A stretch of DNA of 23,937 nt from a virus, in IMG/VR virus record IMGVR_UViG_3300021185_000080, positions 1 through 23,937 of that record; one strand, given 5' to 3'. Made by a program: the position numbers and the translations under genes. Positions 16,725-17,442 of the stretch are shown here, in pieces (the stretch's first letter is position 1; every line of letters begins with the position of its first letter). The notes under the pieces were generated by a model. The model was not told the DNA's origin and did no database searches. It worked only from the letters and a program-made list of their open reading frames with translations.

Positions 16725-16842
16725 TCTCTTGCGGCTGCGTGAGGCTTTGATTAGAAAGTTTGAGTGGGTGGCTCAACCGTAACCTTTGTTTATTGGTTTT
16801 GCGTTACCGAATGTGCCAACATCACGCCACCCACACGATTAC
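16725..16842. other. Convergent intergenic region with long-range inverted repeat
   Basis: The plus-strand late genes and the minus-strand early genes end facing each other here. It holds no gene that I can support. A perfect 9-bp inverted repeat, GTGGGTGGC (16764-16772) and GCCACCCAC (16826-16834), encloses 53 bases that themselves contain a 5-bp inverted pair GTAAC/GTTAC. Neither strand has a clear T-tract after the repeat, so it is not a classical terminator. A shorter hairpin, ACTTAG (16841-16846) with CTAAGT (16854-16859), overlaps the stop codon of the minus-strand gene. Confidence 0.5.
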
Positions 16843-17154
16843 TTAGTATTCAACTAAGTTTAAATTATTTTTGAGTTTGTTTTCTAAGTCGGCCTCTTTA
16901 ATAGAGTTTGGCCCTCTTGTACCCCTAAAAACTATGTTGTGGATTGATCCAGTTGCGCCTCGTCTTTCTGCAAGAAGAACACCAGCCTGATGGTTCACAA
17001 TACATAAGTCATCTTTGGAAGTGTTTGATGGATCGACCAGCTCATCACAAAATGTTTGTGCTTTTTTTCGTATCGCCGTGTCAAGCTCGCTTGCGTCTTT
17101 AAATGTCTGTGCCTCAATATCAATAACGATAACGGCTCTTAAAGGTTTTCCCAT
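16843..17154 (-). CDS. Unknown 103-aa protein
   Basis: The open frame extends to 17211, but I place the start at the ATG of 17154 because GAGAGGGA lies 8 bases before it on the minus strand; earlier codons have no such site. The product begins 'MGKPLRAVIVIDIEAQTFKD', with a hydrophobic beta strand followed by helices. It continues 'CDELVDPSNTSKDDLCIVNH', then 'VLLAERRGATGSIHNIVFRG', then a Lys/Asn-rich tail. The strand-rich core with two Cys suggests a compact alpha/beta fold, but I recognise no family. It lies downstream of the terminator at 17221-17254, so it needs either readthrough or its own promoter; a possible promoter is listed separately. Confidence 0.55.
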   Translation of the reverse strand: MGKPLRAVIVIDIEAQTFKDASELDTAIRKKAQTFCDELVDPSNTSKDDLCIVNHQAGVLLAERRGATGSIHNIVFRGTRGPNSIKEADLENKLKNNLNLVEY

Positions 17155-17183
17155 TTTGTTCCCTCTCTGGTTATGAGGCTTAA

Positions 17184-17211
17184 TAAATACACCAGTTAAA
17201 ATATTTTGCAA
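17184..17211 (-). promoter_or_regulatory. Possible promoter for the gene at 16843-17154
   Basis: On the minus strand TTGCAA (17211-17206) and TATTTA (17189-17184) are separated by 16 bases, a moderate sigma70-like match in an AT-rich stretch 30 bases before the gene start. It lies just after the terminator at 17221-17254, so it would restart transcription for the terminal gene. The match is imperfect. Confidence 0.35.
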
Positions 17212-17220
17212 GTATGTTTA

Positions 17221-17254
17221 TTTAAAGAAAACCCCCGAACCGAAGTTCGAGGGT
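17221..17254 (-). terminator. Rho-independent terminator (minus strand)
   Basis: On the minus strand ACCCTCGAAC (17254-17245), a CGAA-type tetraloop position (minus TTCG, 17244-17241), and GTTCGGGGGT (17240-17231) form a 10-bp stem with one mismatch (plus C opposite A), followed by TTTCTTTAAA. A UUCG loop is the most stable tetraloop and common in terminators. The T-tract is on the minus side only, so this ends leftward transcription of the early operon or of the short RNA proposed at 17222-17287. Confidence 0.75.
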
Positions 17255-17287
17255 ATGTTCACTTAGCTCTGGGGTTAGTAAAGCCCC
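17222..17287 (-). ncRNA. Candidate phage small RNA between its own promoter and terminator
   Basis: A promoter with a perfect TTGACA box lies just to the right (17294-17323), and a UUCG-capped terminator lies at 17254-17221. No ORF with a ribosome site lies between. The predicted transcript starts near 17287, is about 65 bases long, and has two hairpins: GGGG(CTTTACTAA)CCCC on the minus strand, then the terminator stem. Its single-stranded middle, 'CAGAGCTAAGTGAACAT', could be a pairing region. The alternative is a leader with attenuator controlling the gene at 16843-17154. No known RNA family is recognised. Confidence 0.4.
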
Positions 17288-17293
17288 TTTGAA

Positions 17294-17323
17294 TATATAA
17301 TTATATAATAATCGCGCTGTCAA
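17294..17323 (-). promoter_or_regulatory. Sigma70-like promoter with consensus -35 box
   Basis: On the minus strand TTGACA (17323-17318) is followed after 18 bases by TATATA (17299-17294), within a very AT-rich stretch. A second TATAAT lies at 17305-17300 but only 12 bases from the -35, too close to be used with it. The promoter lies just beyond the stop of the 36-residue gene and points at the terminator, so transcription would be very short unless the terminator is read through. Confidence 0.55.
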
Positions 17324-17331
17324 CACGATTA

Positions 17332-17442
17332 CTAGAATATAATGCCCACCAGCGCCATCAAACCAGCGCCGCTGATGAAGCCAAAGATGGCTCCGATCAG
17401 ACCTGCTGCGTTTATCATGCGCTCAAGTTCTTTGTCAGTCAT
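17332..17442 (-). CDS. 36-residue single-TM membrane peptide
   Basis: Translation reads 'MTDKELERMINAAGLIGAIF', then 'GFISGAGLMALVGIIF', then TAG. The start overlaps the stop of the upstream regulator by one base (TGATG), the usual coupling in this operon. Residues 1-9 are charged, and residues 11-36 form one uninterrupted hydrophobic segment with small residues Gly/Ala/Ser spaced as in a helix-packing motif. It resembles small phage or toxin-like membrane peptides. It is last before the terminator region in the early operon. It could disturb or modify the host membrane, but there is no direct evidence. Too short for standard gene calling. Confidence 0.6.
   Translation of the reverse strand: MTDKELERMINAAGLIGAIFGFISGAGLMALVGIIF

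Follow-up and report, generated by a model that had tools for sequence, protein, structure and literature searches.

What does a small block on the minus strand of a viral contig (17221–17323) do, given that it combines a promoter-like site, a hairpin and an intrinsic terminator ahead of a small gene? An earlier note, made from the sequence alone, had read this layout as that of a small RNA, or alternatively as an attenuated leader for the gene at 16843–17154. The window, meaning the whole stretch of DNA analysed, is a linear viral contig of 23.9 kb. Its rightward genes encode structural proteins (portal, scaffold, capsid) and lysis functions; its leftward genes encode an exonuclease, a single-stranded DNA-binding protein and a primase-helicase. 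The nearest isolates by primase-helicase were Roseobacter phages (60% over 55% of the protein), and the nearest isolate by portal protein was Octadecabacter Antarctic DB virus 2 (49.5%). The source phage is marine and podovirus-like, probably with a roseobacter as host. The window was not placed among the CRP-822-type roseophages; this group was the nearest by helicase but not by portal protein. The block is found where the leftward early operon ends, between a 36-aa ORF and a 103-aa gene, in the following arrangement.

17332–17442, minus strand: 36-aa membrane-type ORF, the last early gene ahead of the cassette
17320–17331, minus strand: left copy of the boundary repeat, the cassette edge, directly following the stop codon of the 36-aa ORF (TAATCGTGTTGA in the window, TAATCGTGTGGA in most relatives)
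17318–17323, minus strand: −35-like hexamer TTGACA (TGGACA in every relative with the block)
17294–17299, minus strand: −10-like hexamer TATATA after an 18-nt spacer (TGTATA, TGTATG or TTTATA in relatives)
17268–17284, minus strand: hairpin 1, GGGG-CTTTACTAA-CCCC (GAGG/CCTC in four aligned relatives)
17221–17254, minus strand: intrinsic terminator with a 10-bp stem, UUCG loop and T-tract (CUCG loop in L004 and L007)
17155–17212, minus strand: conserved 5' flank of the 103-aa gene, with promoter-like CTTGCA-17-TATTTA, an inverted repeat (AACTGGT/AACCAG) and a ribosome site
16843–17154, minus strand: 103-aa gene, the cassette cargo, no assigned function (39% G+C)
16764–16841, minus strand: structured element TAATCGTGTGGGTGGC...GCCACCCAC that closes the early operon, far arm at 16764–16772

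Occupied and empty cassette sites

Comparison with related marine phages identifies the block as the front part of an imported single-gene cassette, made up of the block and the 103-aa gene. In relatives with an empty site (e.g. L036, L037, L014 and L054), the stop of the 36-aa ORF was followed directly by TAATCGTGTGGGTGGC. In occupied relatives, TAATCGTGTGG, or a one-base variant of it as in the window, occurred twice and flanked the block and the 103-aa gene. The right copy of this repeat is the 5' arm of the structured element (16764–16841). Occupied and empty sites were found in three backgrounds. After the 36-aa ORF, the cassette was present in the window, L004–L007 and L013, and absent from L036, L037, L014, L028 and L054. 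After a helix-turn-helix gene ending in PRK, it was present in L010, L011 and L002, the last of which had lost the left repeat copy, and absent from L108, L194 and L209. Where the preceding gene ends in V(V/A)RK, L008/L009 were occupied and L137 was empty. The G+C content of the gene (39%) and of the block (36%) was below that of the window (51%), with 2 of 473 windows being as low. The insertion, its repeats, the predicted strong terminator and its linkage to the gene can be read from the sequences.

The absence of the 103-aa gene from close relatives suggests that it is dispensable. No family match was found for its product, nor any relative in a scan of bacterial genomes; a distant relative was present in Roseobacter phage CRP-13 (41.5% identity). 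Its structure was modelled with AlphaFold at poor quality (pLDDT 56 for the 103-aa protein).

Two further genes were observed around the cassette site. In L158 (3133–3535), a different gene of 121 aa lay between two copies of TAATCGTGTGGGT, in the same place as the window cassette and without a promoter–terminator block of its own. The helix-turn-helix-like protein of L002, L010, L011, L108, L194 and L209 (108 aa, ending QAVTQ.KNRY.LPRK) represents another interchangeable last early gene that adjoins the site.

Terminator, leader and promoter-like site

The strong stem-loop with a T-tract at 17254–17221, which the earlier note had recognized, was confirmed and lies far beyond chance. The stem-loop ACCCTCGAAC-TTCG-GTTCGGGGGT (17254–17231), followed by TTTCTTT, forms 10 pairs with a predicted folding energy of −16.2 kcal/mol (z −4.5; 0 of 200 shuffles as good). 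Sites of this grade, taken as stems of 9 or more pairs, with 6 or more of them GC, that carry a T-tract, numbered four in the window (overlapping registers counted apart) versus 0.15 expected from Markov-resampled sequence. The exact 22-nt stem-loop CCCTCGAACTTCGGTTCGGGGG recurred in L093, L095, L096 and L097, unrelated phage contigs in which its surroundings were different, as expected of a generic terminator. Three unrelated terminators were found at the same place upstream of the 103-aa gene: the one in the window and two others, in L003 and in L012/L221 (with one mismatch in the L221 stem). L002 had kept the terminator of the window and lacked the promoter and leader. Ahead of the gene in L008/L009 a terminator was not found, and a T-tract terminator was not seen 3' of the 103-aa gene.

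Promoter, leader and terminator together were carried by seven aligned sequences, including the window. Variable columns were compared in six of these, L013 being omitted since its gene was cut. The promoter (11 of 32 columns) and the leader (12 of 37) drifted at a neutral rate, like the fourfold-degenerate sites of the gene (9 of 31). The terminator alone was below the neutral level (2 of 24), although its lower variability was not significant individually (Fisher p = 0.09).

The second hairpin described in the leader, GGGG-CUUUACUAA-CCCC, was present. Its folding energy of −6.1 kcal/mol was no better than that of shuffles (z −0.14). The whole predicted RNA was more stable than shuffles (z −2.5). 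Stem covariation had been proposed as a check of the block, and it was encountered weakly among the seven sequences. In hairpin 1, GGGG/CCCC changed to GAGG/CCTC, which is one compensatory G-C/A-U pair; this pair splits the set 3 to 4 and therefore probably reflects a single event. The terminator stem showed a one-sided change and no compensatory one. The loop core UUACUAACC of hairpin 1 was invariant. A pseudoknot of the preQ1/SAM type was considered and set aside: UUACU and AGUGA could form five pairs, and as these pairs never vary they give no covariation signal for or against it.

In agreement with the earlier reading, the leader contained no ORF with a ribosome site. It lacked an ATG frame, and its one 14-codon GTG frame, which extends through the terminator, had no convincing ribosome site in the relatives. 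A search of the block against Rfam with cmscan, run at curated and at relaxed thresholds, yielded no hit close to a gathering score; the matches were weak and terminator-like, the best being MicC (22.5 bits versus 90 needed), and the leader matched no riboswitch or known aptamer family. An antisense match of at least 11 nt was not found in the window beyond the block itself. When the viral collection was scanned by DNA pattern, every leader found stood ahead of the 103-aa gene.

The hexamers TTGACA and TATATA are indeed located at 17323–17294 on the minus strand, although their description as a consensus promoter needs to be qualified. Matches of 10 out of 12 promoter bases occurred four times in the window versus 4.4 expected by chance, so that the match by itself is no better than chance. 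The perfect −35 hexamer was unique to the window phage among the relatives with the block, and it overlaps the left boundary repeat (17320–17331). A perfect TATAAT is also present (17305–17300, minus strand), but at 12 nt it is too close to the −35 hexamer to be suitable as a −10. A conserved dedicated promoter, as would mark a small RNA gene, was not found in the relatives, which had TGGACA, a poor −10 and columns varying at the neutral rate.

In at least five settings (L002, L003, L008/L009, L012 and L221), the 103-aa gene lacked the leader, and in all of them its 5' flank of approximately 58 bp was retained, L003 being the most diverged. The flank contains a promoter-like signal (CTTGCA or TTTACA, 17 nt, TATTTA). 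A scan with the flank core found it only ahead of the 103-aa gene; further matches look like chance.

Readings of the block

We favour, with moderate confidence, the reading that the block supplies a phage moron with an insulating terminator at its front, the start signals of the gene lying downstream of that terminator. Phage morons are accessory genes that have entered between neighbours conserved in related phages (PMC4378225, PMC2629481, PMC3851460). In the proposed scheme, a moron cassette would have entered the junction between the last early gene and the structured element with which the early operon closes. The working part of the block would be the intrinsic terminator, which would halt RNA polymerase arriving from the early operon and any that initiated at the weak promoter-like site ahead of the terminator. 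Since it would stop upstream transcription, the 103-aa gene would be insulated, and its expression would depend on signals in the conserved 58-bp 5' flank that follows the terminator. The promoter-like site may give an RNA of approximately 62 nt as a by-product. We infer from the sequence that the terminator is active in vivo, that it has an insulating role and that the 5' flank holds a promoter. Four observations argue against this scheme. L008/L009 carry the gene with no terminator found ahead of it, so insulation would not always be needed; the low variability of the terminator does not reach significance by itself; the compensatory change in hairpin 1 is not needed by a pure by-product; and the signal in the 5' flank is promoter-like only.

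Alternatively, TTGACA/TATATA could make a stand-alone two-hairpin RNA of approximately 62 nt that would act in trans via the CUUUACUAA loop or the single-stranded GCUAAGUGAACA. Promoter, hairpin and terminator do stand in the right order and spacing for such an RNA, and the stability of the whole RNA, the compensatory pair in hairpin 1 and the invariant loop core are consistent with it. Nevertheless, the promoter match at chance level, the perfect −35 in the window phage only, the drift of the leader at the pace of fourfold-degenerate sites, its confinement to the 103-aa gene in the viral collection, its absence with the promoter from L002 despite the terminator there, and the lack of an Rfam match above threshold or of an antisense match of 11 nt or more in the window make this unlikely. 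Of the small RNA layout, the promoter hexamers, hairpin 1 and the terminator are real, and such an RNA may be made in the window phage, in which the −35 became perfect; as a conserved function it is not supported. The same elements could instead form an attenuated leader, in which the promoter would drive the 103-aa gene and the terminator would be conditional, opened by a ligand, a protein or a ribosome. Leader and terminator lie at a near-constant distance from the gene in all leader-bearing loci, hairpin 1 might be the control element, and the pseudoknot with its invariant pairs could take part. No antiterminator fold competed with the terminator in the four versions tested, and because its non-formation costs 17–19 kcal/mol, attenuation by refolding is unlikely. 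There is also no leader peptide with a ribosome site and no riboswitch match. This alternative of the earlier note was further weakened by the gene occurring without the leader, with unrelated terminators or none, yet always with its own 5' flank, and we consider it quite improbable. The block could finally be a plain end-of-operon terminator of the early genes, unrelated to the gene downstream; it does come after the last early gene, and its exact stem-loop is shared with unrelated phage contigs. Relatives that share this last early gene and have no cassette also lack the terminator, and elsewhere it accompanies the cassette behind other upstream genes, which makes this very unlikely.

The structured element and known phage systems

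The element that adjoins the cassette lies between convergent operons in the window. At least 119 stretches contained its 16-nt arm, some of them as chance matches in coding sequence, and the complete element with the far arm was present in 70 distinct sequences from marine phage, in short and long forms. Approximately a dozen unrelated last genes have their stop at the start of the element. The closing arms covary, with GTGGGTAGC/GCTACCCAC in L218, CAGGGTGGC/GCCACCCTG in L021/L024 and GCGGGTGGT/ACCACCCGC in L025; as the search demanded perfect complementarity, this shows that covarying copies exist and does not give the frequency of pairing failure. The inner hairpin varies, with pairing mostly kept. 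Consensus energies were similar for both strands, and no Rfam family matched the element. In another phage type (L110, L116, L129, L168, L179 and L185), a form of the element was followed by a same-strand gene, so the element is not confined to convergent junctions.

An attachment site was considered as a reading of the element; almost all CRP-822-type roseophages are without an integrase (PMC12629253). The element is possibly a hotspot of gene acquisition. A bolder proposal, which we make tentatively and regard as less likely than not, is that it represents a new kind of element, acting as RNA or DNA, with a 5' arm at which gene cassettes repeatedly land. The window cassette, with a promoter-like site derived partly from the repeat and a structured leader RNA, would then be one product.

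A moron has been defined as usually a single coding region flanked by a promoter and a terminator and lying between two genes that are direct neighbours in related phages (PMC4378225). The window cassette resembles morons as a single inserted gene, placed between genes adjacent in relatives in three backgrounds, with a deviant base composition (39% and 36% versus 51% G+C), putative expression signals of its own (the promoter-like CTTGCA/TTTACA-17-TATTTA of the conserved flank) and an associated, predicted intrinsic terminator. In contrast to morons, the terminator is located upstream of the gene with no T-tract terminator seen after it, and the edges of the insertion share a short repeat that is an arm of a conserved structured element. 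The classical role of morons in lysogens need not apply to the window phage.

Phage small RNAs such as lambda OOP, P22 sar and DicF (reviewed in PMC12197685) are short RNAs that end at an intrinsic terminator, as predicted here from the sequence. Known phage genes are the antisense targets of OOP and sar, whereas the block has no known target or conserved promoter. The P22 ant moron contains the antisense RNA sar (PMC2629481, PMC12197685), so an RNA within a moron has a precedent. With attenuators and riboswitch leaders the block shares the order of promoter, hairpin, terminator and gene, but it lacks a competing antiterminator, a leader peptide and a family match, and its leader is not kept with the gene (absent from L002, L003, L008/L009, L012 and L221).

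Read as a small RNA, the block would be just another unproven candidate. The moron reading is more useful because the insertion is visible as occupied and empty sites in three backgrounds, with an edge repeat and a second cargo (L158). Moron acquisition has been called mysterious, and a comparison of accessory regions recognized no common recombinase target (PMC4378225); here an arm of a conserved structured element forms the cassette edge, so that the way in which morons are acquired becomes testable.
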